A DNA stretch of 64,000 nucleotides from Pseudoduganella plicata. Its GTDB lineage: Bacteria > Pseudomonadota > Gammaproteobacteria > Burkholderiales > Burkholderiaceae_D. Made by a program: the position numbers and the translations under genes. Of the stretch, positions 1 to 15,881 are shown piece after piece; within the stretch, counting starts at the first letter, position 1, and every line of letters begins with the position of its first letter. Location: positions 1,488,001-1,552,000 of the forward strand of contig NZ_CP038026.1 of assembly GCF_004421005.1 (NCBI RefSeq). Direction: 5' to 3'. The notes beneath the pieces are model-generated. The model saw only the letters and a list, made by a program, of their open reading frames with translations, was not told the origin of the DNA and ran no database searches.

Positions 1-1873
1 CGCCGCTCCAGATGGCAACCGCGTTGCGCTGCACGCCGGCGAAACCGGAACGCGACAGGATGAACTGGCGGGTATCGGGCTGATCGCGCTTCAGGTGGTC
101 GTGGAAGCCCTGCGTGTGCGCCAGGCTGTATGTATTGAACGTGACCTCGCCGGGACCGTAGACGGTCGGGCCGATCAGCTTCTTGAAGTCCTCCAGGCGC
201 GAGTTCGACAGCACGTCCGGTTCCGTATTGTCCATCCACCAGGCGTCGATGCCCAGGTCGACCAGTTTCGTCTTCAGCTGGCGATAGTAGATGTCGCGCG
301 CCTTTTCCGTGTACGGGTCGTAGTGGCTGTTCTTGTAGCCGGGTCCGACCCAATCGAGGTCGCCGTTCTCCACGTTCTTGGTCCACATGCCGCCGGCCGC
401 CTGCAGCTCCTTGTAGTTGTCCGTATTGGCGTAGAACTTGCCCCAGATCGAGAACATGATGTGGGCGTTCTGACGGTGCACCTCGTCCACCATGCCTTTC
501 GGGTCGGGAAAACGCTTCTTGTCGAAGTCATGCGAACCCCAGCCGTTTTCCGGCCAGTAGAACCAGTCCTGCACGATATTATCCAGTGGCCAGCCGCGCT
601 GGCGGTACTGCCTGACCGTGTCCAGCAGTTGTTCCTGCGTCTCGTAGCGCTGGCGCGACTGCCAGAAGCCGAACGCCCACTTCGGCATCATCGGCTGTTC
701 GCCCGTCAGCGTGCGGTAGCCGCCGATGACGCTGTCGATGCTGGTGCCGCGGATGACGTAGTAATTGATCGCCTCGGCCACCTCGGACGACAAGGTCAGC
801 GAATGGCGCTCGGGCGCTGGCAGCGGATCGTTGTGGGTAACGGCGATCATGCCGCCTTCGGGTTTCCAGTCCAGGTGGAACCTGACCGGTTTGTCGGCTG
901 TGAAGTCGATGTCGAAGTTGTGGTACCACGGGTTCCAGCCCTGGCGCCAGACATCCAGCACCTTCTTGCCGTCGATCGTCAGGGTGGCGTAGTCGGACGA
1001 GTACAGCTGCATCTTGTGGCGGCCCGGTTTCGACGACGCCAGCGTCCCTTCCCACACCACGCGCACGTTCTTCAGCGCTTTCAGCGGGCCAAGTTCCTTC
1101 GGCCAGAACTCGGCGACGTCCTTCAGGTACTGGTAGCGCAGGTCGTCTTCGCGGCGCGTGAGGGCGAGCTTGTCGCCGATGTAGTAGCGCGCCGTCAGTG
1201 CACCCGGCTTGCCGTCGGCGTCCGTCAGCTGCAGGTCGCGCTTCATCGGGCCATACGGACGGGCGTCGCCGAAGCGCGAAATGCCGTTGTTGTCCCACAG
1301 GACGCCGTAGTTCTTGTCCGAGACGACGAACGGCACGGCGATGTCCATATTGTGCTGCTGCAGGAGCACGTCCTCGCCGTTCAGGTTCATCTGGCCGTTC
1401 TGGTGCTGGCCGGTGCCGTAGAACGCGTCCTTCGTGCCGTGGTTGAAGCCCTGCTTGACCGTGACGAACGCCTTGCCTTCCAGGTTAACGGGTGCGATGC
1501 TCTCGCTGTCCTGCTTCAGGAAGACCGGACCTTTCGGATCGGCGAATTGCACCTGGCCGTCGGCCAACGAAACGGTGGCGACGACGTTCCTCGTCGTCAG
1601 CGCGACCGCGTTGCCCGTCTTCTTGACGTCGAAGCGGCACGCGCATGGCCTGGCGATCGTCATCATCGATGGCGTGAGCTGCTTGCCGGCCTGATCGACC
1701 TTGACGACGTGAACGATATTGTCCGCCATGACCTCCAGGCGGATTTCCTTCGCCGCGCCGCTGTCGGGCGTGATCGCGACGCCGGTGGCGGTCTGCTGGA
1801 ACGTGCCGGCCCACGCCTGGCCGCATGCCATCGCCAGGGTGGCGCATGCCAGGCTGATTGTCTTCATCTGCAT
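1..1873 (-). CDS. GH31 alpha-xylosidase with PA14 insert, partial at window edge
   Basis: Secreted or periplasmic glycoside hydrolase family 31 enzyme, most likely an alpha-xylosidase that removes alpha-1,6-xylose from the non-reducing end of xyloglucan oligosaccharides. The frame is open from an ATG at 1873 to the window start, with a cleavable signal peptide (about 20 residues ending AWA). A PA14-like beta domain sits near residues 235-345, as in the Cellvibrio xyloglucan enzyme Xyl31A. The GH31 nucleophile motif WWMDNTEPD follows, with the Asp near residue 548. The reading stops at the WSG of the acid/base motif, so the catalytic acid Asp and the C-terminal domains lie outside. A GGGGA ribosome site precedes the ATG. 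It follows the GH35 gene by 23 bases and is the last visible gene of the operon. Family assignment is firm; alpha-xylosidase rather than alpha-glucosidase is inferred from the PA14 insert and neighbours. Confidence 0.88.
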   Translation of the reverse strand, partial: MQMKTISLACATLAMACGQAWAGTFQQTATGVAITPDSGAAKEIRLEVMADNIVHVVKVDQAGKQLTPSMMTIARPCACRFDVKKTGNAVALTTRNVVATVSLADGQVQFADPKGPVFLKQDSESIAPVNLEGKAFVTVKQGFNHGTKDAFYGTGQHQNGQMNLNGEDVLLQQHNMDIAVPFVVSDKNYGVLWDNNGISRFGDARPYGPMKRDLQLTDADGKPGALTARYYIGDKLALTRREDDLRYQYLKDVAEFWPKELGPLKALKNVRVVWEGTLASSKPGRHKMQLYSSDYATLTIDGKKVLDVWRQGWNPWYHNFDIDFTADKPVRFHLDWKPEGGMIAVTHNDPLPAPERHSLTLSSEVAEAINYYVIRGTSIDSVIGGYRTLTGEQPMMPKWAFGFWQSRQRYETQEQLLDTVRQYRQRGWPLDNIVQDWFYWPENGWGSHDFDKKRFPDPKGMVDEVHRQNAHIMFSIWGKFYANTDNYKELQAAGGMWTKNVENGDLDWVGPGYKNSHYDPYTEKARDIYYRQLKTKLVDLGIDAWWMDNTEPDVLSNSRLEDFKKLIGPTVYGPGEVTFNTYSLAHTQGFHDHLKRDQPDTRQFILSRSGFAGVQRNAVAIWSG

Positions 1874-1896
1874 TGTCTGTTGTCCCCGTATCGTTA

Positions 1897-3546
1897 TCAA
1901 TATGTACCCAGCCTCACGCGCAGCACCGTCGGTCGCGCCATGAAATTGAGGCCGTAGTCGGTCTGGTCGCCATTCCAGTTGCGTTCCATGGTCCAGCGGC
2001 CCTTGTCGTCGAACTGCCCTTCTTCCACGCGCGCATAGGCCGAAGGCTTGCCGGCATTGCTGCCGGCCCCCTCGAACTTGATGCGGGCATGCTGGCCGAC
2101 GACAACGAACTCGTTGTCACCGATCTGCGCGACGGCCACGCCGCCGTTGGGCGACTCGGTTCCGGCCGGCTTGTCCTGGATATGCTTGAAGTACTGCGCT
2201 TCGCCGAACTGCCACTCGCGGAACGACACGGTGGCCTTCCAGTTGCGCAGCGCGATCGTCTGGGGTGCCCGGTCGTCGCCTTCGGCCACGCCATGCGTGC
2301 GGCCCTCGAACGCCCACTGGGCCCACTGCCGCATCATTGGCCGGAACACGTTGTAGATAGTGCCGAACGGCGCCACCATCGAGCGGTCCGTGGCCTTGGA
2401 ACCGAGCGGGAAGTTGCTGTAGTCGGCGTAATCGATGCCGAACGGCGCAAAGCCGATGCCGCCGCGTCCCAGCACGGCGAACGCATAGCGCGGGTAGGCC
2501 GTCGAGTTGCCTATCTCGGGCACGAACAGCGCGTTGTCGGGACGGTGGAATTTGTCCAGCGTGGCCGCCACCTTGTTCGACGCCGGCTCGTAGATGTCCG
2601 GCCCCGCCACGTCGATATGCGGCGCGGCAGCCTTGTAGATGCCGATGACGTCATACGTCGGGCCGCCGCTGGCGAAGTTCTTCTTCCACGGCGCCAGCGG
2701 CTCGACCGCATCGCGCAGCGCGTTGTTGACAAACATGGGCAGATCGTAGACGGCACGTCCGGCCTTGGCAATTTCCTCGATATAGCTGGCGATCGCATAC
2801 GTATGGAAATACTGTTCGGCATAGTCGCCGTAGACCTGCTGCCAGGTGCCGCTGGCCGCGCCCTTGACGGGCGCCTTCTGCTGCTTCAGCACCGCGGCTG
2901 GCACGGCCTGGGCGAACGCCTTCTGCGCCGTGGGGCTGTAGTCGCGCGCATAGCCGTAGGTGCCGACCTCGTTCTGCACCTGCATCATGATGACGGTATG
3001 TTGCTCGCCGTCAATCTTCTTCAGGTGCGTCATCAGTTCGACGAATGCCTTGCGGTCCGCCTTCAGCGTTTCCGTACCGTGCGGCGAGAGGCAGTAGATC
3101 GGCTTGCCGTCTTTGTCCACCATGCGCGGGAAGCGGCTGTTGTTGAACTTGACCCATTCCGGCACATAGCTCGGCCCCGTGTTCTTCCACGTGCCGAACC
3201 ACAGCAGTACCAGGCGCACATTGCGCTCGCGCGCCTGCTGCACCAGCGTGTCGACGTAGCTGAAGTCGAACCTGCCCTCGACGGGCTCGATCTGCTCCCA
3301 CGCCACGGGTATCTCCAGCGTGTTGGCATTCGCATCGGCCACCGCGGCCCACACCTTCGGCAACGCCGCCACGTAATTGCTGGAGTTGTGCGCCTGCGCG
3401 CCCAGCATCACGTATGGCGCGCCATCCACCATCAGCGCGTGGCGGCCGTCTTTCGTGACGAGCCGCGGCAGTTCCGCGGCCAGCGCCGCGGACCCGCATG
3501 CCGCCGCGACGGCGAGGCAGACAAGTGTTCTCGCAAACGTTTTCAT
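1897..3546 (-). CDS. GH35 beta-galactosidase (DUF5597 type)
   Basis: Predicted exported beta-galactosidase of the bacterial GH35/DUF5597 group (549 residues) that would remove beta-1,2-galactose from xyloglucan side chains. The signal peptide covers residues 1-23 (ending ALAA). The (beta/alpha)8 domain has the acid/base Glu193 in a QNE motif and the likely nucleophile Glu344 in FVPEIG. The C-terminal third is a beta-rich DUF5597-like domain. Its homologue Bgl35A is part of the Cellvibrio xyloglucan locus. It starts 7 bases after the TonB-dependent receptor stop, so the two are almost certainly co-transcribed. Beta-galactosidase activity is known for the family; xyloglucan as substrate is inferred from the neighbours. 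Confidence 0.9.
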   Translation of the reverse strand: MKTFARTLVCLAVAAACGSAALAAELPRLVTKDGRHALMVDGAPYVMLGAQAHNSSNYVAALPKVWAAVADANANTLEIPVAWEQIEPVEGRFDFSYVDTLVQQARERNVRLVLLWFGTWKNTGPSYVPEWVKFNNSRFPRMVDKDGKPIYCLSPHGTETLKADRKAFVELMTHLKKIDGEQHTVIMMQVQNEVGTYGYARDYSPTAQKAFAQAVPAAVLKQQKAPVKGAASGTWQQVYGDYAEQYFHTYAIASYIEEIAKAGRAVYDLPMFVNNALRDAVEPLAPWKKNFASGGPTYDVIGIYKAAAPHIDVAGPDIYEPASNKVAATLDKFHRPDNALFVPEIGNSTAYPRYAFAVLGRGGIGFAPFGIDYADYSNFPLGSKATDRSMVAPFGTIYNVFRPMMRQWAQWAFEGRTHGVAEGDDRAPQTIALRNWKATVSFREWQFGEAQYFKHIQDKPAGTESPNGGVAVAQIGDNEFVVVGQHARIKFEGAGSNAGKPSAYARVEEGQFDDKGRWTMERNWNGDQTDYGLNFMARPTVLRVRLGTY

Positions 3547-3553
3547 AAGCGCC

Positions 3554-6500
3554 TCAGAAAGAGTAGCGTACTTGCGCGGTATAGCGCGGGCCGGAAACGA
3601 ACCATGCGCGGCCCATCATGCCGATCCCCTGCTGCATCAGCTGCTTGGCCTTGGCGTCCGTCAGGTTCTGCGCCTCCACGCCGATCGACGTGCGTTCGTT
3701 GATCTGATACGACAGCGATGCATCGAGCTGCCCGTAGTCGTCCGCCCACAGCGGCAGCGCCCAGCCCACATTGTGCTGGCCGAACGTCGGGCTGGCCGGA
3801 TTGGTATCGGTGCCGTCGCCGCCGCGCGTGCCGTTGACGTTGATGCCCTGCAGATTCTTCGATCGCCAGCTCCACGCGGCGCGCGCCGACCACGGCCCCT
3901 TGTCGTACAGGATTGCCACGTTATACGAGTTGCGCGACAGGTATTGGAGCGGCAGGTTGCCGAAGCCGCGGCCATCCGTGTCGCAGCCGTTCTGGTTCAG
4001 GTTCAGGTTTGCCGCCGTGTTACCGCCCGAGCAGTAGGCCGAGAACGTCGGATTGTACGGCTTCGTGCTGCTGTCCACGAACGTGTAGTTGACCTGCACG
4101 CCCAGGCCGGACAGAGCGCCCGGCAGCTTGTCGAAATACTGCTGGTAGGCGATCTCCACGCCGGTGGCGCGTCCGCGGGCGCCGTTCACAGGCCCCGTCA
4201 CGGTAAAGTTCTGCAACGTGCCGTTGACGTCCGGGATCTGGTAGTCGTATGACTGCTGGACGATGACGTCCTTCAGGCGTTTGTTGAACAGCGCGACGGT
4301 GACGGAGCTGGCGCGGCCGAAGTACCACTCTGCCGTCAGGTCCACCTGCGTGGCCGTCGTGGGACGCAGCAGCGGATTGCCCTTGCCCTCGCCCGTCAGG
4401 GTCATGCTGTTGATGACCGTGTGGCGTTCCGGCAGAAAGTTGGTCAGCTTGATGTCCTGCGTCAGCGTCGCGTAGCCCTGCAGGTCCTTGAAGTCGGGGC
4501 GCGAAATCGCTTTCGACATCGCAAAGCGGAATTGCAGGTCGTCACGCGCCTTCATGCGCAGGTTCAGGCTTGGCAGTACGTTGTGGTACGAGTTGCCATA
4601 GGCCTGGTCCGCCGAGAAGGCCGGGATCGTCGGCACGGCCGGTCCCGACACGGTATGGCCGGGCGGGATGGTAACGGTCGGCGGCGTGAAGACCGTGTAG
4701 CCGCGCGCTTCCATTTCCGTCTTCACGTAGCGCACCCCCACATTGCCGTCCACCGGATACTTCCAGTTGTCGAAGCCGAAGCGCAGCTGGCCGAACATCG
4801 CCTTGGTCTTTTCCGACTGCTCGTTGATGCCGGCCGGATTGCCCCCGAATTTCGCCGGGCTCCACGTGGCGCAGTTCTGCGTCTGGCCGGTGGCAGCGGC
4901 GCGCTCGGCGCAGAGGATATTGTGGAATTCGTGCAGCGCGGCGTACGAGTTGGGGAAGCCGGTCGCCCACGACGTGTCGGGGAACACCAGCGACGGCACG
5001 TTGGCTTTGCCGTTGAAGAAGTTGTTGAACGTCGTCAGGTGCGTGGCGCCGGAGAAGCGCGGATCTGCCAGCCAGGCAAGGTTGTTGATGTTGTTCCCCA
5101 GCTGCCAGGTCTGCGAGATCGGCGACCAGTTATAGTCCGGATTGGACGTCTCGTTGAGCGAGTCGCGTTTGGTGAGGCGCACGCCGAAGCGCAGGTCGCG
5201 CAGCACCGGATGATCGAAGGTGTATTTGGCGTCACCCTTCCATGCCTTCGATACCGCCTCGCTGCGGTCCAGGTGTTCCTGCGTGAACGCCCAGTAGTAG
5301 CTGTTCGGGTTCGCCAGGTAGGCGCGCTGCGCATCGGTGAACATCAGATTCGGCACGTTGCCGGACAGGTCGATCTGCTGCTCGGGCATCTGCAAGCCGG
5401 TCGCCACGGTCGAATCGAGGCCGTGGGTTCTGGCCTTGATGCGCTGCAGGTCGGAAGTAAACGACCAGCGGTCGTTGGCGCGCCACGTCACGTTCCACGA
5501 GATATCCGTGGTGTCGGACTTGCGGTTGGCGATACGGGTGTCGTCGCCGAAGTTGATGCCCGGGTCGACGCGGTCGAACATCGTGCCCGTCACGAACGCG
5601 CCAGTCGGGCTGTAGGTGGCGCCTGGACGGATGCCGATGTTGTACGGGTTCGACGCGGCAAACAGTGCCTGCTCGTCCCACTGCATCTGGTACTTCGACT
5701 TGAAATACGTCAGGTGCGAGCGCAGGTCGGCGTTGGCCTTCCATTGCAGCGCGCCGTACATGCCCTGGCGCTTGCGATCGAAGTTCAGCGTACGCCATTG
5801 CGTGCCTTTCGGCACCCAGACCGTCCTGCCAGGTTCGATGTCGTCACGTGGAAAGTACGGCTCGACCTGGAAGCCGTCCGTGCGGGTGCCGCTTTCCGAG
5901 TAGGCATAATCGAACAGCGCGCCGACTTCGCCGATGCCGGTCTTCCAGCGGTTCGACAGCATCACGGAGCCCGATGGCGACCACTTGCCCTTCCTCAGTT
6001 CCGAGTAAGTGGACTGGGCCGAAATACCCACCTTTGAACCCTTGAAGTCGAACGGCAGCGCCGTGCGCAGGTTGACCAGGCCGCCGATGCCGCCTTCGAT
6101 CTGTTCGGCCGACGGGTTCTTGTAGACGTCCAGCCCGGCCATCAGTTCGGGCGGCACGTCCTCGAAGTTCAGCGAGCGGCCGCCGTTGGCGGAGAACGAG
6201 TCGCGGCCGTTCAGTTCCGAGCGCACCATCGACAGCCCGCGGATGGAGACGCCCGAGCCCTCCACCGAATAGTGTTCCGGGTCGCCGCGGCTCATCGTGC
6301 GGTCGATGGTGACGCCGACGACGCGCTGCAGCACTTCCGTCACGGAGCGGTCCGGCAGCTTGCCGATATCCTCGGCCACGATGGAATCGACGATCTCGTC
6401 GGAGTCCTGCTTGATCTTCTGCGCCGATTCGATCGAGCCGCGCTGGCCCGTGACGACGACGGTGACGGGGGCATCGGCGCCCTGGCCTGCCTGGGTGGTC

Positions 6501-6580
6501 TGGGCGTGGACTGCGTGCGACGACATCAGTGCGATCTGCGCGGCAGCCAGCGCGATCGCATTCAGCTTGAACTGTTTCAA
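3554..6580 (-). CDS. TonB-dependent receptor for (xyloglucan) oligosaccharides
   Basis: Outer-membrane TonB-dependent transporter of 1008 residues, of the long Xanthomonas/Caulobacter carbohydrate type, that would import xyloglucan oligosaccharides. The signal peptide covers residues 1-26 (ending VHA). A TonB-box-like segment (VTVVVTG) and a plug domain follow, then a beta barrel ending in an aromatic residue (VRYSF). The chosen start is a TTG at 6580, because GAGGAG lies five bases upstream and the signal peptide begins there; the frame stays open to an ATG at 6670 but that extension has no ribosome site. It lies between the GH95 and GH35 genes, the same company as the Cellvibrio xyloglucan transporter. 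The 114-base leader carries the element shared with the xylR promoter. The ligand is inferred. Confidence 0.9.
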   Translation of the reverse strand: MKQFKLNAIALAAAQIALMSSHAVHAQTTQAGQGADAPVTVVVTGQRGSIESAQKIKQDSDEIVDSIVAEDIGKLPDRSVTEVLQRVVGVTIDRTMSRGDPEHYSVEGSGVSIRGLSMVRSELNGRDSFSANGGRSLNFEDVPPELMAGLDVYKNPSAEQIEGGIGGLVNLRTALPFDFKGSKVGISAQSTYSELRKGKWSPSGSVMLSNRWKTGIGEVGALFDYAYSESGTRTDGFQVEPYFPRDDIEPGRTVWVPKGTQWRTLNFDRKRQGMYGALQWKANADLRSHLTYFKSKYQMQWDEQALFAASNPYNIGIRPGATYSPTGAFVTGTMFDRVDPGINFGDDTRIANRKSDTTDISWNVTWRANDRWSFTSDLQRIKARTHGLDSTVATGLQMPEQQIDLSGNVPNLMFTDAQRAYLANPNSYYWAFTQEHLDRSEAVSKAWKGDAKYTFDHPVLRDLRFGVRLTKRDSLNETSNPDYNWSPISQTWQLGNNINNLAWLADPRFSGATHLTTFNNFFNGKANVPSLVFPDTSWATGFPNSYAALHEFHNILCAERAAATGQTQNCATWSPAKFGGNPAGINEQSEKTKAMFGQLRFGFDNWKYPVDGNVGVRYVKTEMEARGYTVFTPPTVTIPPGHTVSGPAVPTIPAFSADQAYGNSYHNVLPSLNLRMKARDDLQFRFAMSKAISRPDFKDLQGYATLTQDIKLTNFLPERHTVINSMTLTGEGKGNPLLRPTTATQVDLTAEWYFGRASSVTVALFNKRLKDVIVQQSYDYQIPDVNGTLQNFTVTGPVNGARGRATGVEIAYQQYFDKLPGALSGLGVQVNYTFVDSSTKPYNPTFSAYCSGGNTAANLNLNQNGCDTDGRGFGNLPLQYLSRNSYNVAILYDKGPWSARAAWSWRSKNLQGINVNGTRGGDGTDTNPASPTFGQHNVGWALPLWADDYGQLDASLSYQINERTSIGVEAQNLTDAKAKQLMQQGIGMMGRAWFVSGPRYTAQVRYSF

Positions 6581-6651
6581 AGCGTCTCCTCGTTTTATTC
6601 GGTACGAACTACTGTTGTGCGCAATATTGTGTGTTCGCACGTGGGGTGGGG

Positions 6652-6690
6652 CAATTGCGAAATTCACCAAATCGGCAAACGATATTTCGC
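6652..6690. promoter_or_regulatory. Candidate XylR-type operator upstream of the TonB receptor
   Basis: The 12 bases CAATTGCGAAAT at 6652-6663 recur exactly at 15987-15998 upstream of xylR. In this copy GCGAAAT (6657-6663) is mirrored by ATTTCGC (6684-6690), so the whole looks like two inverted half-sites. It lies 72-111 bases upstream of the receptor start, in the only sizeable gap within the enzyme block. The identity is seen directly; binding by XylR is inferred. Confidence 0.45.
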
Positions 6691-6694
6691 CGCT

Positions 6695-9070
6695 TCATTT
6701 CAACTCCGGCCCCAGGCGGCGTTGCTCGCCGGGCCGCAGGCGCAGCTCCACCGTTCTGCCGCCATGGCGCACCCGCACCGTCGCTGCATCCGTGCCGGCC
6801 ACGCGCCGGATGGCGGCCGACGTCAGCCGGCCGGCCTGCCATGCCATGTCCACCTCGAAGCCGCCGCGTGCCCGCAGACCGCGCACGGCGCCGTCCGGCC
6901 ACGCGGCGGGCAGCGCCGGCAGCAGATCGATGGCGCCGTCGTGTGACTGCAGCAGCATTTCGACAATGGCCGCGGTGGCGCCAAAATTGCCGTCGATCTG
7001 GAATGGCGGATGCGCGTCCAGCATGTTCGGATAGACGCCGCCGGCGTTGTTGTGCTCCGTGCCTTGCGACGCCTGCGTGGCCGCGCGCGCGCCTGGCTTG
7101 GCCAGCAGGCCGCGCAACATCGTGTAGGCGTGGTCGCCGTCGTGCAAACGGGCCCAGAAGGCAGTCTTCCACGCCATCGACCAGCCCGTACCCGCGTCGC
7201 CGCGCGCAGCCAGCGATTTGCGCGCCGCCGCGGCCAGCGCGGGCGTGCGCAGCGGCGTGATCTGCCGGCCCGGGAACACGCCGAACAGGTGGGACACGTG
7301 ACGATGGGTGTCCTTCGGCGTATCCAGCACCGGGTCGCGCTTCTCCTCCAGCCACTCCAGCAATTGCCCCCAGCTGCCCACGCGCGGGCCCGCCAGCCGG
7401 TCGCGCGCCGCCGCGACCTGGCGTGCGAACGCGGCGTCCCCCAGGATGCGGGCCGCCTGCGCCGTGTTGTCGAACACGTCCCACACCAGCTGCTGGTCGT
7501 ACCCGACGCCATCCTCGACGGGGCCATGTTCGGGCGACCAGCCGTTCGGCGCGACCAGCCGGCCGTCCGGCAGCCGTTTCAGGTAGTCCAGCCAGAACTG
7601 ACTGACCTCCTTCATCAGCGGGTATGCCGTCGCTGCCAGGTACGCCCGGTCCTGCGTGAACGCGTAATGCTCCCAGAAGTGCAGCGCGTACCAGGCGTTG
7701 GCCGTCTTGTTCCAGCGAAAGCCCGTGTAGCCGAACGGGTTCGATTCCGTGCGCACCGTCCAGCCGCGCACCGGTTTGCCGTCCGCACGGCGGAACGTTT
7801 CGACCGGCTCCGCTTCCGCCTTCTGGCTGGCGTCGCCCGCGTTGGACGGCGGCGGCCCGTGCTGCGCGCTGTGCGCCACGAGGCGGCGGTAAGCCGGCAC
7901 CATCGCCTGCACGAAGCCCAGCAGCGGCTCGGCCAGTTCCGACAGGTTGGCCGTCTCGGCCGGCCAGTAGTTCATCTGGATATTGATGTTGGTGTGATAG
8001 TCCGCGTTCCACGGCGGCGTCAGGCTGTTGTTCCACAGGCCCTGCAGATTGGCCGGCAACGGCCCGCGCGAGCTGGCGATCAGCAGGTAGCGGCCGAACT
8101 GGAAGAACTGTGCTTCCAGTTCCGGGTCCTGCCCCTCTCGCGTGTACGCTTCCAGACGGCGGTCCGTCGTCAGCGCCCGGCGCTCCGGCGCGGCCGTGCC
8201 CACGTCCAGGACCACGCGCCCGAACAGTGCGGCGTAGTCGCGTTCATGGTCGGCCTGCAGCGCGGACCATGAACGCGCCGCGGCCGCCGTCACCTGGGCC
8301 GTCACGCGCGCCAGCGGATGGGCGCCCTGGAACGCGGCTTTCGGATCGCGGACATAGCTGGTGCCGGCGCCCAGCACCAGGGTGACGCTGTCGCAGTCCT
8401 GGAACCGCACGGTGTCGCCTGCCATCGTCACGCTGCCGCCTTCGTGCAGCACCTGCACCTGACTGGCGTACGTCATGGTGTTGGCCGATGGCGGCAGGTT
8501 TGCCGGCGTCCACTGGTTGCCCCGCTCGGGGGTAAGGACAAAGCCGGCCAGCGAGCCGGTGGCGTAGATGCGGTTGCCGTTGGCGGCGATGTGCGCGCCA
8601 TGCATGTCGGTCAGGCGCACGGTGCCGCTGTGCGCACCCGCCCTGTCGGCGCTCAGGCGCACGACGATGACGTCGGACGGATGGCTGGCCAGCACTTCGC
8701 GGGTGTAGCGCACGCCGGCATGGGTGTAGCTGACGGTGTGCAGCGCCCGCGCCAGATCCAGCGTGCGGCGGTAGTCCGTCGCCTTGTCATGGCCCGGCAG
8801 GTCGACGGTCAGGTCGCCGAACGGCTGGAAGGCGCCCATGGTTTTTTCGTCGCCCGTCCACAGCGTGATGTCGTTGAAGGACAGATGTTCGCGGCCCGGC
8901 TGGCCGAACACCATGGCGCCGATGCGGCCGTTCCCGACCGGCAGCGCCTCGCGCTCCCAGCCCTCGGCCGTTTCGGCGGCGGGCCGGTCGTAGCGCAACG
9001 TCAGGTCGGGCGCCGCCCACGCCTGTCCCGCCGCCAGCACGGCGGCAAACACCAGCCGGCGCGCCGTCAC
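6695..9070 (-). CDS. GH95 alpha-L-fucosidase (or alpha-L-galactosidase)
   Basis: Exported GH95 enzyme (791 residues) expected to release alpha-1,2-L-fucose, or L-galactose, from fucosylated xyloglucan side chains. The GTG start at 9070 is followed by a signal peptide of about 20 residues ending AWA. Conserved GH95 features are visible in order: N-terminal [13 protein letters not shown] and [10 protein letters not shown], the catalytic-region [10 protein letters not shown], the central (alpha/alpha)6 barrel, [14 protein letters not shown], and the late PFQIDGNFG motif with its catalytic-site Asp. The start overlaps the stop of the GH74 gene by four bases (GTGA), so the two are translationally coupled. 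Length is normal for the family. Fucosidase versus galactosidase specificity cannot be told from sequence alone. Confidence 0.9.
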
Positions 9071-12000
9071 GGCGCGCCCACCGGTTCGCCGTAGACGATG
9101 CCGCGGCCAGCGGTACTCATGTAGACGCGGCCGAAGACATTCAGGTCGCCGACGACGAAGCCGCCGTCGCCCGGCCCGCCGTACTGGTGCGCGTCGTCGT
9201 TGATCCTGGCCCAGGTGGCGCCGGCATCGAGCGAGCGGTAGACGCCGCGCTGGCCTTTCACGGTGCCCCAGAGGTAGACGGCGGGGTCCGGCGCGCCCGG
9301 CGCGGCCTTGCCGAAGCCGACGGCGCCGCCATAGCTCACGCCCGGCAGCAGGCGGAACGTCGCGCCACCGTCGACCGAACGAGCCAGACCGCTGTCCTTC
9401 AGCGGCACCCAGACGTCGCCGGTGCGGCCCGGCATGGCGACGACGACGTTCGAGCCGCCGGCCGGCAAGCGCGCGGTGGCCGCGAAGGTCTTGCCTCCAT
9501 CGGCGCTGGCGACGAATGCCCCGTCCTGGTAGGCATAGAAACGCAGCGGATCGGCCGGATCGGCGACGGGGCGCGCCTTGGCGCGCAGCCCCGCTACTTC
9601 CGTCCAGCGTTTGCCGGCATCGGTCGTGCGCCACGTAACGGCGGACCCCGCGGGGCTGTGCAGCAGCACCGCGCCATCGGCCGACAGCGCCAGCTGCCCG
9701 TTCTTGCCCTTGACGACGGGTGCGGCCTGCCAGCTCGCGCCGCCATCGGTACTCATATACACCTGGGCGCCCGCGCGTGCCAGCACGGCTGGCCGGCTGC
9801 CCGCAACCGCCAGGCCGAACGTGGTGCCCATGCGCGGCTGGTGCGTGGGGCTGTACTGCTTCGGGTCGCGGTGGACGAAGCCGTCCACGTCGCCGACCAC
9901 CGAGATCATCGGGCCGCCAGGCACGCTCACCATATTCAGCGGCACCGTCTCCTCCATGCCCTGCACGGCAAAACGCCACGTCGTCGGCGTGGCGTTCAAG
10001 TCGGCGGTATGAAACACGCCATTGCCGGACGTGACCCATGCCGCTCGCCCGTCGAACGGATCGAAGGCGATCGAGCCGGTCCAGTGGATGCCGTGGCCGC
10101 GGATCCAGTCGATGCCGGCCGTGTCTTTCGCAAAGCCGCGTGCAATGACGTCAGTCCAGCTGGCGCCACCGTCCTGCGACAGGTAGATGCGGTCGCCTTT
10201 CGTGCGCTCGGCCGGATCGGCGGCGTTGGACTGGGGCACGAACGTGTTGATCGTCGATACCAGCACGCGGCGCGGATCGTTGCGGTCCACGGAAACACCG
10301 GAAAAAGCCGTGCGCAGGCCGCTTGGCGTAACGTCCGCCCACGCGCGCGCCGCGATGGCGTATTTCCACACGCCGCCCCGATTGACCGGCTCCTTGCCGG
10401 CCTGGTCGGGATGAGGACCGGCGCCGTTGGCGAACGTGACATACAGGTTGCCCTGCCCGTCCAGCGCCGCGCGGTGCGGCATTAGGTCGCGCGGCGCGCC
10501 GGCGACCGGCGCGAAGGAGGCGCCGCCATCGTCGCTGCGGTACAGGTTCGGCCCCACGCTGCCGTAGCGCGAGACGCCGACGTAAAGCCGGCGCTGCGCG
10601 TCCGGCACCACGAAGACGATGCCCGCGCCGTTCGGCGTCGTCGTCACGTCCAGGCCCGTCATGCGCTGCCACGTGGCGCCGGCGTCGCGGCTCTGAAACA
10701 GGCCGTTGGCGCGCGTACCGACGTACAGCACATTGGGGTCGGTCGGATCGACCGCGAGGCGCTCGCCGTTCTGGCGGCCCATGCCGTTGCCGTGCGTCCT
10801 GAACTGGGCCGTCACGTCGGTCACCGCAAAGGTCCTGCCATAGTCGTTCGAGCGCAGGATGGCCGTACGCCCGCCGTTCAGGTATTCGATGCCGGCCAGC
10901 AGATAGACCTTGCCGGCGTTGTTCGGATCCACGGCCAGCGAGTCCACACCCAGCAATCCCGTCCGTTCCTCGCCGACCCAGTCCTGCAGCGCGTGCCAGT
11001 GCGCCGTCTTGCCGTCCCACCGGTAGGCGCCGCCCACGTCCGTGCGGGCGTACGCGACGCCCCGTTCGGACGGACTGGGAATCACCGCCGTGACGAAGCC
11101 GCCGCCGCCGATGGCGACGCTGTTCCACTCGTACCCGGTCAGGAGCTTTTGCAGCACGGGCTCCATCGCTTCAGCCCACAGCGCGTAGCCGCGCGCGTTC
11201 GGGTGCAGCAGGTCCGGCATCACGTCCGTCGGCAGGCCGCCGTTCGCATCGAGGAAGGCGTTCGAGATGTCGTGATAGAACACCTTGTCGTTGTCGGCAA
11301 ACGTCGCCAGGATGGCGTTGACGCCATCATTGATCCGGCGCTGCTTCGAATCCGGCATGGCGTCGCGCGGGAAGATGCCCAGCACGAGGATCTTCGCACG
11401 CGGCAGGCGCCCGCGCAGTTCGTCGACGATCAGTTTCATCGCCGCCGCCGTCGTGCGCGGGTCTTCCTGGCGGTGGCCCGTGTTGTTCGTTCCCGCCATC
11501 AGCACGACGACCTTCGGATCGAGGCCGTCCACTTCGCCATGCCGCAGGCGCCACAGGATGTTTTCCGTGCGGTCGCCGCTGTAGCCCAGGTTCAGCGCGT
11601 TGTAGCGCGCGTAGCGCCGGGCCCACTCGTCCTTGCCCTCCTTCTCCCACCCTTGCGTGATCGAGTCGCCGATGAACACGACTTCGGGGAGCGCGCCGGC
11701 CGCCTTGCGCTCGGCGATTTCCTTCAGTTTCTGCTCGTGGCGCGGCATCCACCAGTCCAGCGACCATGGCTCGTTCAGCGGTGCCGGGGTGACGGACACG
11801 CTGCGATAGTCCGGGCACTGCGCGTTGGGCTTGCCGTGCGCCTTGAAGCGCACGTTCGCCACCGCCACCTCGCCCGAGCCGTTGGCTTCGATGGAGAACG
11901 GCCTGGCGATGGCGGAAAAATCGTCGCCTTCGCGCAGGAAGCAGCGCATGGAAAATTCCAGGTGACGCCAGCCCTTGCCGGCGGCCGCGCGCGATTGCAC

Positions 12001-12462
12001 CACGTACGGCACCTTGCGCTCGCAGTCCTTGCCGCAGCCCAGCTGGAAGTAGATGCCGCCCTTGCTCATCTCGCGCACGTCCAGGTCGAACGCCAGCACG
12101 CCGTCCGGCGCATACGGACCGAGGTCGCGCCTGCCGGCTTCCGCTCCCTCATCGCCTTCGATGCGAAGGCTGGCGTACCAGGTATCTTTGAACTTCAGGA
12201 CGAGTGCGTCGCGCTTGCCCGCCTTGACGGCATCGGCGCGCACGACGGCTTCCGGCTGCTTTGCGTTGGTCGGCACGGTGGCGGAACGGCCCGCCAGCCT
12301 GGCCTGGCCTTCCGAGTGGGCGACGGTGACGTGCCAGCCCGGGGCGGGACGGGCATCGTAGACCTTGAGGTCAGGCGTGGCGGCCTGGGTGTACAGGGTC
12401 GTCGCGGCTGCGACGACGCCTGCCAGCGCGCGCAGGAGCGGCACGGCGATTGATTTCTGCAT
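9067..12462 (-). CDS. Three-domain ExoP-like / SGNH esterase / GH74 endo-xyloglucanase
   Basis: Exported 1131-residue enzyme predicted to cut the xyloglucan backbone and deacylate it. A signal peptide (about 1-28) precedes a beta-sandwich like the C-terminal galactose-binding-like domain of ExoP beta-glucanases (about 31-210). An SGNH/GDSL hydrolase of the PAF-acetylhydrolase-like group follows (about 255-440), with Ser267 in GDSI, the GTNN block near 324 and the Asp417/His420 pair in DLLHPN. A full GH74 double beta-propeller runs from about 444 to the end, opening with IGGGGFV and [12 protein letters not shown] (catalytic-region Asp475) and containing BNR/Asp-box repeats. There is virtually no linker between esterase and GH74. 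The ATG at 12462 was chosen over the 49-codon upstream extension because it has a GAGA ribosome site and begins the signal peptide. Substrate is inferred; the domains are clear. Confidence 0.9.
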
Positions 12463-12571: not shown

Positions 12572-13576
12572 CTATTTGCCTGCCAGCTGGGCGTTCGTGT
12601 AGAAGCCATCCTTGACCAGCACGTCGATATTGTCCCTGGTCAGCGGCGTGGGTTTCAGCAGCAGCGTACTGACCTTCTTGAAACCGTTGTCATATTGCGA
12701 GTTAAAAGAGGGCTTCTCGTTGCGCACCAGCTGCACCGACAGCTTCGCCGCTTCGCTGGCAATAGCCTTCAGCGGTTTGTACACAGTCATCGCCTGCGTG
12801 CCGGCGACCACGCGGCGCACGGCCGCCAGGTCGGCATCCTGGCCCGACACCGGCACCTTGCCGGCCAGCTTCTGCGCACCCAGCGCCTGGATGGCGCCGC
12901 CCGCGGTGGCATCGTTTGACGCGACCACCGCGTCGATCTTGTTGTTGTTCGCCGTCAGCGCGTTTTCCACGATCGCCAGCGCCTCGCTCGGGCTCCAGTC
13001 CTTGACCCATTGCTTGCCGACGATCTTGATGGCGCCCTTGTCCACCAGCGGCTGCAGCACGGCCATCTGTCCCTCGCGCAGGATCTTCGCGTTGTTGTCG
13101 GTTGGCGCGCCGCCCAGCAGGTAGTAATTACCCTTCGGAACCCGATCGACGAGCGCCTTGGCCTGCATCTCGCCCACGGCCTTGTTATCGAACGAGATGT
13201 AGGCATCGAGGTCGGCGTTCAGCGTCAGGCGGTCGTACGAGATCACCTTGATGCCGGCCTTCTTCGCTTCCTTGATCGCATTGCCCAGCACCGTGGCGTT
13301 GTACGGCACGACGACGATGGCGTCCACGCCGCGCGCGATCAGGTTCTCGATTTGCGAGATCTGTTTCTGCTCGTTGCCGTCCGCGGACTGCACGAACACC
13401 TTGGCGCCCAGCTGCGTGGCCGCGGCGACGAAGTAGTCGCGGTCGCGCGCCCAGCGCTCGAGCCGCAGGTCGTCGATCGAGAAGCCGATCTTCGGATTTT
13501 TCGCGTCGGCGCTGGCCTGGCCGGCGGTCAGCAACAGCAGCGATGCGGCGATGGCCGCGCTCAGAACCTTCTTCAT
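12572..13576 (-). CDS. xylF: D-xylose ABC transporter substrate-binding protein
   Basis: Periplasmic xylose-binding protein (334 residues) of the XylF type. The signal peptide covers residues 1-23. The mature part has the type I sugar-binding fold, with IGFSIDDLRLERWARD at the N-terminus, the ISFDNKAVG segment, and VVASNDATAGGA plus VSGQDAD in the second lobe, all typical of XylF. AAGGAG lies eight bases before the ATG. It sits between galM and the esterase-GH74 gene, so it would capture xylose released by the GH31 enzyme. The partner ATPase (xylG) and permease (xylH) are not next to it nor elsewhere in the window, which is unusual for this family. Confidence 0.92.
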   Translation of the reverse strand: MKKVLSAAIAASLLLLTAGQASADAKNPKIGFSIDDLRLERWARDRDYFVAAATQLGAKVFVQSADGNEQKQISQIENLIARGVDAIVVVPYNATVLGNAIKEAKKAGIKVISYDRLTLNADLDAYISFDNKAVGEMQAKALVDRVPKGNYYLLGGAPTDNNAKILREGQMAVLQPLVDKGAIKIVGKQWVKDWSPSEALAIVENALTANNNKIDAVVASNDATAGGAIQALGAQKLAGKVPVSGQDADLAAVRRVVAGTQAMTVYKPLKAIASEAAKLSVQLVRNEKPSFNSQYDNGFKKVSTLLLKPTPLTRDNIDVLVKDGFYTNAQLAGK

Positions 13577-13599: not shown

Positions 13600-14649
13600 T
13601 CAGCACTGCAATGACAGCCGGTACACCGTGGTTTGCCGGTACACCTGGCCGGGACGCAGGATCACGGCCGCCGCGTGCTGGCCATTGAGCTGGTCGGGAA
13701 AGGCGCCCGCCTCCAGACAGAATCCGTCGTGCCGGGAATACGGCTGGCGGCTGCGGCCCTGCACGCCCTCCAGGCAGTTCCCGCTGTAGAACTGCAGCCC
13801 CGCTTCCGTGGTCGCCACCTGCAACTGGCGGCCCGACCCCGGGTCGTACACCCGCGCGACGGTACGCAGGGCGCTGGCGTTGCCCATCGCGTCGTCGGAC
13901 AGGCAGTAGCAGTGATCGAAGCCGCCGGCCAGACGGATCTGCGCGTCGGGCCAGCGCAGGCGCGGACCGATGGCGGCCGGCTGGCGGAAGTCGAACGGCG
14001 TGCCGCCCACGCCGGCGCGCCCGACGGGAATGCCGGCCGGGTCGATCTGCAGGTAGTAATCGGCATCGATCTGCAGCATATGGTCGCCCACGTCGCCCGC
14101 GCCGCCGTTCAGGTTGAAGTACGGGTGCGACGTCAGGTTGATCGGGGTAGGCGCGTCCGACGTGGCCTGGTATTCGATCGACAGGCAGCCGTCGTCGTCG
14201 AGCTGGTAGAACACCTGTACTTCGACGTTGCCGGGGAAGCCGCCCTCGCCGTCCGGCGACACATGGCGCAAGGTCAGGCCGCCGTGTGCCATCACGCCGC
14301 GCCAGTGGGCGCAGTGGAAGCCATCGGCACCGCCGTGCAGGTGGTTGCCGCGGTCGTTGACGTCCGCCTGCACCGGGCGCCCGTCGAGCATGAAGCGGCC
14401 GGCGGCGATGCGGTTGGCCCAGCGCCCGATGATGGCGCCGAAATATGAGGGATTGCCGCGGTACTGCGCATCGCTCGGGTAGCCGAGCAGGACGTCGGCC
14501 ATGCGGCCGTAACGGTCCGGGGCCCACCACGACACGAGCGCGGCACCCCGTTCGCTGACGGTGACCCGCATGCCATAGGCGTTGCGCAGCGTGAACAGCT
14601 GGGCATCAACGCATGCCACGGGAAGAGTCGGTGCTGATTTGAAGTTCAT
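13600..14649 (-). CDS. galM: Aldose 1-epimerase (galactose mutarotase)
   Basis: Cytoplasmic mutarotase (349 residues) interconverting alpha and beta anomers of galactose, glucose or xylose. Visible family blocks are the NRI in GRWANRIAAGRF, the NHLHGG catalytic-region motif, LTSHPYFNLNG with its catalytic His, and the late Glu in TTEAGLQFYSGN. The ATG at 14649 gives the expected N-terminus; the frame stays open upstream into xylR but that extension is not family-like. It lies 11 bases after the xylR stop and 23 bases before xylF, so the three probably form one transcript. The role fits galactose and xylose released from xyloglucan. Confidence 0.9.
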   Translation of the reverse strand: MNFKSAPTLPVACVDAQLFTLRNAYGMRVTVSERGAALVSWWAPDRYGRMADVLLGYPSDAQYRGNPSYFGAIIGRWANRIAAGRFMLDGRPVQADVNDRGNHLHGGADGFHCAHWRGVMAHGGLTLRHVSPDGEGGFPGNVEVQVFYQLDDDGCLSIEYQATSDAPTPINLTSHPYFNLNGGAGDVGDHMLQIDADYYLQIDPAGIPVGRAGVGGTPFDFRQPAAIGPRLRWPDAQIRLAGGFDHCYCLSDDAMGNASALRTVARVYDPGSGRQLQVATTEAGLQFYSGNCLEGVQGRSRQPYSRHDGFCLEAGAFPDQLNGQHAAAVILRPGQVYRQTTVYRLSLQC

Positions 14650-14660
14650 GACCTGGGCTT

Positions 14661-15881
14661 TCAGGCGTGTAGATCGGGGATGCCCAGCGTGGGCATCCCC
14701 AGAGCGGGCGCACTGCTGCGCGCGCGTTCCTGGTAGGCGCGCGGCGTACAGCCAAGTTCGCGCTTGAAGACGGAATGCATGTACTGGCTGGACGTGAAGC
14801 CGCACTTGATGGCGACGTCCGTCAGGTTGCAGTCGCCCCGGTCCAGATAGGCGATGGCCGCGTCCAGACGCAGGCGCAGGATCTCGTCATGCACGCTGCA
14901 GCCCAGCTCCTGGCGGAAGTAGCACTCCAGCGTGGAACGCGAGATGCCGACGTAATCGGCCACCTGGTCCGTCTTGATGCCCTGGCACGCGTACTGGCGG
15001 ATGAAATGGCGCGCCCGCATGACATGCGGATGCTTGGCGCGTTCGTGCTTGCTCGACGCCAGCACGTTGATGCCGGCCGGCGGCACGAGAATGCGCGTGT
15101 CGGCCAGCCGCACGCCGTGCAGCATCTGGTCCAGCAAGTGGGCCGCCGTGCGGCCCATCTCCTCGGCGCCCTGGATCACGGAACTCATCGGGATGCGCGT
15201 CAGCATGCGTGCCAGCGGATCGTTGTCGATGCCGATCAGCGCCACCTGTTCCGGCACCTCGATGCCGGCCAGCGCGCAGGCCTGCAGCAGCTGGCGCGCG
15301 CGCGCATCCGTCACGGCGATGATGCCGACCGGCTTCGGCAGGCTGTGCAGCCAGGCGATCTGCTGCTCCACCGCCTCGTTCCACAGCGGCGCGCTGGTGC
15401 ACTGGCCGCGGTAGATTTCCGGCTCCAGCTTGTCGCGGCGCATCAGGCTGCAGAACGCCTTCTCGCGCTCCTGCGCCCAGCGATTTTCCTGCGCTTCGGG
15501 AAGGCTGAACAGGGCCAGGTTACGCAGCCCCGCCTCGATCAGATGTTCATAAGCCAGTTTGATCAGCTTGAAGTTATCCGTCGCCACGTAAGGCACCGCG
15601 GCCGGATAGTCGGCCGGGCTTTCGTACGAGCCGCCGACGGCGACCACAGGCACGCGGCACGATGCCAGCGCGCCGGCGACCGCCGGATTGTCGAAGTCGG
15701 CGATGATGCCGTCGCCCTGCCACTGGTCGATGCCGGACAGGCGGGCGCGGAAATCCTCTTCGAGGAACAGGTCCCAGGCCGTACGCGTGCTGGCGAGGTA
15801 GCCGGCGATTCCCGTGATGACCTCACGATCGAATATTTTATTGGCGTTGAAAAGCAGCGCAATGCGGTGCGTTCTCAGCAT
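14661..15881 (-). CDS. xylR: Xylose-responsive AraC-family activator XylR
   Basis: Transcription factor of 406 residues with the XylR layout: an N-terminal periplasmic-binding-protein-like sensor (about 1-280, opening IALLFNANKIFDREVITGIAGY) joined to a C-terminal AraC/XylS DNA-binding domain (about 290-395, with VADYVGISRSTLECYFRQELG and VAIKCGFTSSQYMHSVFKRELG). E. coli XylR binds D-xylose in the sensor and activates xyl operons. The ATG at 15881 has GGGAG upstream. It heads the minus-strand sugar block, with galM and xylF directly behind, and the element shared with the TonB receptor promoter lies about 110 bases upstream, so it plausibly autoregulates and controls the whole locus. Confidence 0.92.
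   Translation of the reverse strand: MLRTHRIALLFNANKIFDREVITGIAGYLASTRTAWDLFLEEDFRARLSGIDQWQGDGIIADFDNPAVAGALASCRVPVVAVGGSYESPADYPAAVPYVATDNFKLIKLAYEHLIEAGLRNLALFSLPEAQENRWAQEREKAFCSLMRRDKLEPEIYRGQCTSAPLWNEAVEQQIAWLHSLPKPVGIIAVTDARARQLLQACALAGIEVPEQVALIGIDNDPLARMLTRIPMSSVIQGAEEMGRTAAHLLDQMLHGVRLADTRILVPPAGINVLASSKHERAKHPHVMRARHFIRQYACQGIKTDQVADYVGISRSTLECYFRQELGCSVHDEILRLRLDAAIAYLDRGDCNLTDVAIKCGFTSSQYMHSVFKRELGCTPRAYQERARSSAPALGMPTLGIPDLHA

Follow-up and report, generated by a model that had tools for sequence, protein, structure and literature searches.

An SGNH esterase joined to a GH74 propeller in Pseudoduganella plicata, and its probable production by recoding on nine adenines in a sister clade

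Among the described systems closest to the one analysed here, the xyloglucan locus of Cellvibrio is reported to hold GH31, GH35 and GH95 enzymes and a TonB receptor (PMC4285296), while that of Xanthomonas, according to the account of the locus in PMC8245568, adds a GH74 enzyme and a separate CE20 esterase, with deacetylation thought to come after uptake. Bacterial CE20 enzymes are described as SGNH hydrolases with an inserted domain, and eukaryotic CE20 enzymes as lacking that insert (PMC12313940). A gene interrupted by a poly-A run is represented by tssM1 of Citrobacter rodentium, for which short and long products of an A11 run are reported from experiment, both of them needed (PMC4256274).

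Here, we analyse a window of 64,000 nucleotides from Pseudoduganella plicata, in which a first-pass annotation had singled out one gene. We propose, at a probability of roughly 0.75, that this gene encodes a secreted two-activity xyloglucan enzyme, and that the same fusion is made in a sister clade by recoding on a run of nine adenines (A9). The first part of this finding, the fusion itself, holds, and its architecture is moderately novel; the evolutionary setting, with a fusion apparently made by slippage in the sister clade, is more surprising than the architecture. Neither an SGNH-GH74 fusion nor recoding on A9 in a GH74 gene is reported in those parts of the open PMC literature that the search returned; a search of the same literature for GH74 with transcriptional slippage likewise found nothing, and in the recoding review PMC5009743 the terms cellulase, fucosidase, glycosyl hydrolase and xyloglucan do not occur within the first 300,000 characters.

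The fusion gene and its locus

The fusion gene is a single intact open reading frame with an ATG start and a TGA stop (Table 1). It lies in a series of genes transcribed from the minus strand in the order XylR-type regulator, GalM, XylF, fusion, GH95, TonB receptor, GH35 and GH31 which, as judged from its gene content, is a full xyloglucan utilisation locus.

Table 1. Features of the locus, in coordinates of the window
Feature	Coordinates	Strand	Basis
GH31 alpha-xylosidase-type enzyme, running off the window's left end; start codon uncertain	2..1900	-	PF01055; open-ended ORF
GH35 beta-galactosidase	1897..3546	-	NF051902, 507 bits (cut-off 500)
TonB-dependent receptor; start codon uncertain	3554..6670	-	TIGR01782, 650 bits
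GH95 alpha-L-fucosidase-type enzyme; GTG start, 4-base overlap with fusion stop	6695..9070	-	PF22124, E 2.3e-147
Fusion gene, 1131 aa: signal peptide, ExoP-like domain, SGNH hydrolase, GH74	9067..12462	-	ORF, Pfam, alignments
Probable signal peptide, residues 1-27	12382..12462	-	Sequence inspection only
Exop_C (galactose-binding-like beta-sandwich), residues 43-206	11845..12336	-	PF18559, E 1.9e-23; fold match 3f95
SGNH/GDSL hydrolase, residues 225-442 (Ser267, Asn326, Asp417, His420)	11137..11790	-	PF13472, E 1e-34; 3dt6; AF2/Foldseek
GH74 endo-xyloglucanase-type double propeller, residues 443-1128 (Asp475, Asp858)	9079..11136	-	6p2l, E 2.6e-176; alignments
Loop after RWD, residues 484-488, GGC AAG ACG GCG CAC: place of the A9 switch in 15 relatives	10999..11013	-	
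XylF, D-xylose-binding protein	12572..13576	-	TIGR02634, 496 bits
GalM-type aldose 1-epimerase; true start probably near 14649	13600..14805	-	PF01263; NF008277 above cut-off, TIGR02636 below
XylR-type regulator	14661..15881	-	PF22177 (PBP1_XylR) and AraC HTH

The three-part chain that the first-pass annotation had described, an ExoP-like domain followed by an SGNH hydrolase and a GH74 propeller, is borne out by the open reading frame, by Pfam and by alignment to the solved GH74 structure 6p2l. Its relation of the N-terminal domain to ExoP holds both in Pfam, where Exop_C scores 83.4 bits against a gathering score of 26.1, and in Foldseek, where the sandwich of an AF2 model of residues 28–442 (66 rows, pLDDT 95.4, pTM 0.91) matches ExoP domain X (3f95) with a TMt of 0.73-0.77. 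Another Exop_C domain is present elsewhere in the same genome (G000:C1:3256273-3256647, L002), in an 852-codon frame that perhaps encodes an ExoP-like glucosidase.

Within the SGNH domain, which Pfam recognises as Lipase_GDSL_2 at residues 263–428, the Ser-Gly-Asn-His blocks and the Asp-x-x-His signature of the SGNH/GDSL superfamily are all present: the serine, aspartate and histidine named in the first reading lie in GDS (Ser267) and PDLLH (Asp417 and His420) motifs, and Asn326 lies in GTNN. These four residues are invariant across the 66-row alignment (positions 240, 299, 390 and 393). By sequence and by model, the esterase resembles PAF acetylhydrolase and is unlike the CE20 enzyme of Xanthomonas; its SGNH part superposes on PAF acetylhydrolase IB (1wab) with a TMt of 0.91 and an rmsd of 1.9, and 3dt6, of the same kind, is matched in sequence at E 2.1e-31. 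The esterase is not of the Xanthomonas kind, its nearest solved relatives being PAF acetylhydrolases IB. A specific identity with XacXaeA-type CE20 was rejected, as the SGNH domain is continuous from residue 225 to 442, with no interrupting ancillary domain, and the closest folds are those of PAF acetylhydrolases; the absent insert does not by itself exclude the wider CE20 family, since eukaryotic members lack it. None of the 37 chains among the sequence matches to the window protein is named a xyloglucan acetylesterase. Enzymes of the PAF acetylhydrolase type favour acetyl groups. The acetyl removal from xyloglucan that the first reading suggested is plausible as a putative activity of the SGNH unit.

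Residues 444–1124 match NkGH74 (6p2l), and full-length alignment to 6p2l, 6p2m, 7kn8 and 2cn2 puts Asp475 (in RTDVGG) and Asp858 (in VGD) in the aligned places. We take these two residues to be the catalytic pair of this family, whose enzymes consist of two seven-bladed propellers, by mapping D70 and D480 of CtXgh74A through the alignment. An apparent replacement of a catalytic aspartate by serine was rejected, as the alignment places that aspartate at 858. The GH74 part is described here as a putative endo-xyloglucanase. The PAF acetylhydrolase match stops at residue 443 and GH74 matches begin at 443–444, so a linker is essentially absent after the SGNH domain, which ends at about 442, in agreement with the first reading, which had described almost none. 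That reading had also placed the GH95 start over the fusion stop, and a GTG at 9070 does share four bases with it (GTGA). With E-values of this order and 18 full-length, single-frame relatives (54–82% identity), a chance architecture is excluded. The AF2 model of the full-length fusion (12 rows) is poor (pLDDT 68.8, pTM 0.44); domain packing is therefore left uninterpreted and the GH74 blades are judged by sequence.

We propose that a soil-type bacterium would secrete this fusion, that the ExoP-like sandwich and SGNH domain would form a carbohydrate O-acetylesterase unit removing side-chain acetyl groups, and that the directly joined GH74 propeller would cut the glucan backbone, after which the GH95, GH35 and GH31 enzymes would strip fucose, galactose and xylose.

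Distribution of the fusion and of the esterase unit

The fusion protein has some match in 58 of the 74 genomes of the window's genus, and in 22 of these 74 the match passes from SGNH into GH74 without a change of frame. Nineteen of the 22, the window included, give a single match, two more (G041 and G073) give two matches within one open frame, and G008 is broken. The architecture had been called unusual: this stands to a moderate degree as far as novelty goes, but the fusion is not unique to the strain. In G008, the frame of the fusion (L009) breaks near query residues 105 and 1020 (near 1501-1882 and 4239-4266), through lesions or sequencing errors.

Across 392 evenly drawn genomes of the family, the ExoP-SGNH unit is present in 72 (E 1e-60), and no SGNH-GH74 fusion was found outside the genus in this set. 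Outside the genus, four rows have frames of more than 700 codons (G180, G206, G264 and G311); as candidate fusions they were rejected, since the esterase ends within two codons and is unfused (L126, L128-L130). A wider pattern scan of genome contigs (84,980 species by description) returned 332 stretches, 308 of which encode relatives, and the best 80 of these 308 together with the genus loci make up 90 distinct rows, of which 21 are in-frame fusions (counting L009), 15 are genes split on A9 and 54 have ExoP-SGNH alone. Among the named records in this set of the best 80 of 308 and the genus loci, fused or split genes occur in Duganella, Pseudoduganella, Rugamonas and one 'Oxalobacteraceae bacterium'.

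Several relatives show other arrangements. L065 has the esterase and GH74 as adjacent but separate genes, possibly the state before fusion. A close relative of the window's locus, L040 (G024), has kept GH35, GH95, the TonB receptor, XylF, GalM, XylR and ExoP-SGNH, and GH74 was not found in the fetched locus. In Pseudoxanthomonas wuyuanensis (L094:9001-11196), ExoP-SGNH shares a chain with a Pfam 'Putative esterase' domain, and three genus genomes (L121, L122 and L123) carry an ExoP-SGNH-SGNH chain with a domain of this 'Putative esterase' kind, the Pfam assignments coming from L094 and L121. This domain we take to be CE1-like. A separate second SGNH gene follows ExoP-SGNH in L132 (G036) and L134 (G045), and in G036 a GH74 gene lies ~2.7 kb beyond it. 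A Pfam scan of seven L091 open reading frames, in poorly chosen frames, gave no match.

These surroundings bear on what the esterase acts upon. The SGNH domain might act on acetylated xylan, lipids or another ester, in which case the fusion would not deacetylate xyloglucan; we regard this as unlikely, though it deserves weight. The nearest solved structures are PAF acetylhydrolases, and relatives of the unit are fused to a 'Putative esterase' domain or lie outside sugar-enzyme loci. In the fetched flanks of 32 of the 54 loci with ExoP-SGNH alone, no GH35, GH95 or GH74 relative was found at E 1e-20, which weakens the link to xyloglucan; together with a Massilia copy (L076) that adjoins a nucleoside-hydrolase-like gene, these loci suggest that the substrate of the esterase could differ. 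Against this, relatives of these three enzymes accompany the esterase in the window and in the other 22 loci, the fusion to GH74 and the xyloglucan locus both point to xyloglucan, and acetyl is the group that PAF acetylhydrolase-type enzymes prefer. Xyloglucan thus remains our preferred candidate substrate.

A frame switch on nine adenines in related genes

In 15 genomes, 13 of them named Duganella, the fusion gene occupies two overlapping frames, split inside the first GH74 blade. Fourteen are genus genomes in which the alignment to the fusion falls into two abutting pieces that meet at about query residue 485, and Duganella callida is the fifteenth. In all 15 the switch falls on exactly nine As; 14 read GAC GYA AAA AAA AAC, the second codon being GTA or GCA, and in L021 the run starts one base later. 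The first frame (frame 0) is closed in every case by a TGA 21–22 bases past the start of the run, and the GH74 frame (frame 2) stays open and uninterrupted for 630–645 codons. Runs of this length are scarce around these genes: the 15 loci together span 207,451 bases, and the only nine-base A/T runs in them are the fifteen at the switch, with four runs of eight, ten of seven and 39 of six. In the two single-contig genomes among the 15, nine-A/T runs are few, with 40 (G013) and 45 (G064) matches genome-wide, overlapping ones counted. Lysine codons in the split genes are AAG 749 times and AAA 201 times. The window gene has no A run at this place, where it reads as given in Table 1; it is the constitutive form, in which every molecule is a fusion.

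In 15 of 15 split genes, the first frame retains the SGNH motifs together with the first GH74 aspartate, the second frame retains the other aspartate, and by inspection the signal peptide also lies in the first frame. A working secreted GH74 would therefore need a product that crosses the frames. Both frames are under selection: over 105 pairs of split genes, omega has a median of 0.27 in the first frame and 0.18 in the GH74 frame. In ten in-frame relatives this GH74 stretch gives 0.27 (45 pairs), so splitting has not relaxed the constraint on GH74. The 15 relatives accordingly combine a conserved slippery run with selection on both frames, as expected of recoding.

We think it probable that one Duganella gene yields free acetylesterase and esterase-GH74 fusion in a set ratio, by a recoding that has most simply a single origin, in an in-frame fusion of the kind seen in the window, and is found in at least 15 species. 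The nine As in the first GH74 blade would make RNA polymerase, the ribosome or both slip into the GH74 frame; molecules that do not slip would end as free esterase, and those that do would continue into the fusion.

A switch without recoding seems very improbable. Runs of a single base in coding sequence can change length through replication slippage, and three Duganella relatives have no GH74 in the fetched locus, so that A9 might serve phase variation or might simply inactivate the gene by frameshift. A phase-variation switch should give mixed lengths, yet nine As and an identical frame relation are found in 15 of 15; dead frames should decay, but the GH74 frame is never interrupted and has the low omega given above.

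Improbable too, if less so, is a true gene fission with translational coupling, in which the second frame starts at the ATG of a TGATG stop-start overlap and yields a separate GH74 protein. Overlapping stop-start pairs are a known signal for translational coupling. All 15 split genes have this TGATG, and Antonov et al. report translational-coupling clusters in the account given in PMC3711429. However, the methionine of that ATG also occurs in four in-frame relatives (L017, L019, L020 and L035), coupling does not need A9, and a product started there would have neither the first GH74 aspartate nor, by inspection, a signal peptide, although its frame is under purifying selection.

As to how the recoding would take place, we mildly favour slippage during transcription, to which the ribosome may add a share. 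Of the heptamers for a -1 ribosomal slip, A_AAA_AAA occurs in the run in 15 of 15 genes and A_AAA_AAC in 14 of 15, but nine pure As in two registers (given the offset in L021) exceed what a slip heptamer needs. A shift from AAC to AAA is described as less readily tolerated by bacterial ribosomes (PMC4066793), and nine-A/T runs as prone to RNA polymerase slippage in some bacterial genomes (PMC1088944). The slip-site stretch does not rank with the least variable windows at synonymous sites, and a search for strong constraint beyond A9 itself found none. The 66 bases after the run fold more stably than shuffles in the slip genes (median z -2.73, range -0.82 to -3.80), with four of the 15 (L021, L026, L032 and L044) within about one standard deviation of shuffles, compared with a median z of 0.14 at the same place in 21 in-frame genes; these scores ignore the relatedness of the rows, and the fold signal is therefore suggestive. 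A stem of seven pairs downstream of the run is present in all 15 slip genes and could also form in the in-frame L038, and its covariation is weak, with a single compensating double change, in L021.

In a tree of ExoP-SGNH built by a quick method, the 15 slip rows and L045, L055 and L059 form one clade (SH-aLRT 99), nested inside the in-frame Duganella fusions. Recoding therefore most simply arose once, within a fusion, and given this apparent single event the 15 slip genes are not independent. In L045, L055 and L059, all from Duganella, GH74 was not found in the fetched locus and ExoP-SGNH lies just before XylR. A short GH74-like remnant is retained in L045. GH74 would then have been lost two or three times in the slip clade (L045 and L055 may share one loss) with the esterase half retained, as expected if the unslipped product is itself useful.

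Comparison with known systems

Should A9 recoding be confirmed, bacteria would offer a conserved case in which slippage sets how the output of a secreted sugar enzyme divides between its one- and two-activity forms. The in-frame close relatives are natural controls, so that the benefit of a tethered versus a freed esterase is directly testable. Ordinary gene calling would be expected to cut the slip genes in two and to record GH74 as a fragment that lacks both the signal peptide and the first aspartate.

Each half of the fusion has close counterparts. The whole double propeller of NkGH74 (6p2l) aligns to the window's GH74 with both aspartate positions kept; the solved NkGH74 chain has no esterase, whereas the window chain carries an N-terminal esterase unit joined without a linker. 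PAF acetylhydrolase IB alpha subunits (1wab and 3dt6) share the SGNH fold, ~30% identity and the order of motifs, and the window protein differs from them in its fused glycosidase, its ExoP-type sandwich and an N-terminus that resembles a signal peptide. In CE2 carbohydrate esterases, a beta-sandwich likewise precedes the SGNH domain. The whole-chain Foldseek match to 2waa and 2wao is weak, despite this similar layout (TM 0.32-0.42, rmsd 17-19), which argues for a different packing.

At the level of the locus, the Xanthomonas system, as described in PMC8245568, brings together GH74 (XacXeg74), GH31, GH35, GH95, TonB transporters and an acetylesterase (XacXaeA, CE20), as the window does. In the same description the Xanthomonas esterase is a CE20 protein of its own, encoded by a separate gene, a contrast that the first-pass annotation had drawn correctly, whereas the window's esterase is a PAF acetylhydrolase-like SGNH domain within the GH74 chain. 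In contrast to Xanthomonas, a single chain that both deacetylates and cuts would keep both reactions to one side of the outer membrane. For the split genes, tssM1 offers the closest parallel: in the report of PMC4256274, poly-A in an interrupted gene gives short and full-length products, and we propose the same for the split fusion genes. The tssM1 run is an A11 in a secretion-system gene, whereas here an A9 is conserved across 15 species in the gene for a putative secreted sugar enzyme, with recoding predicted.
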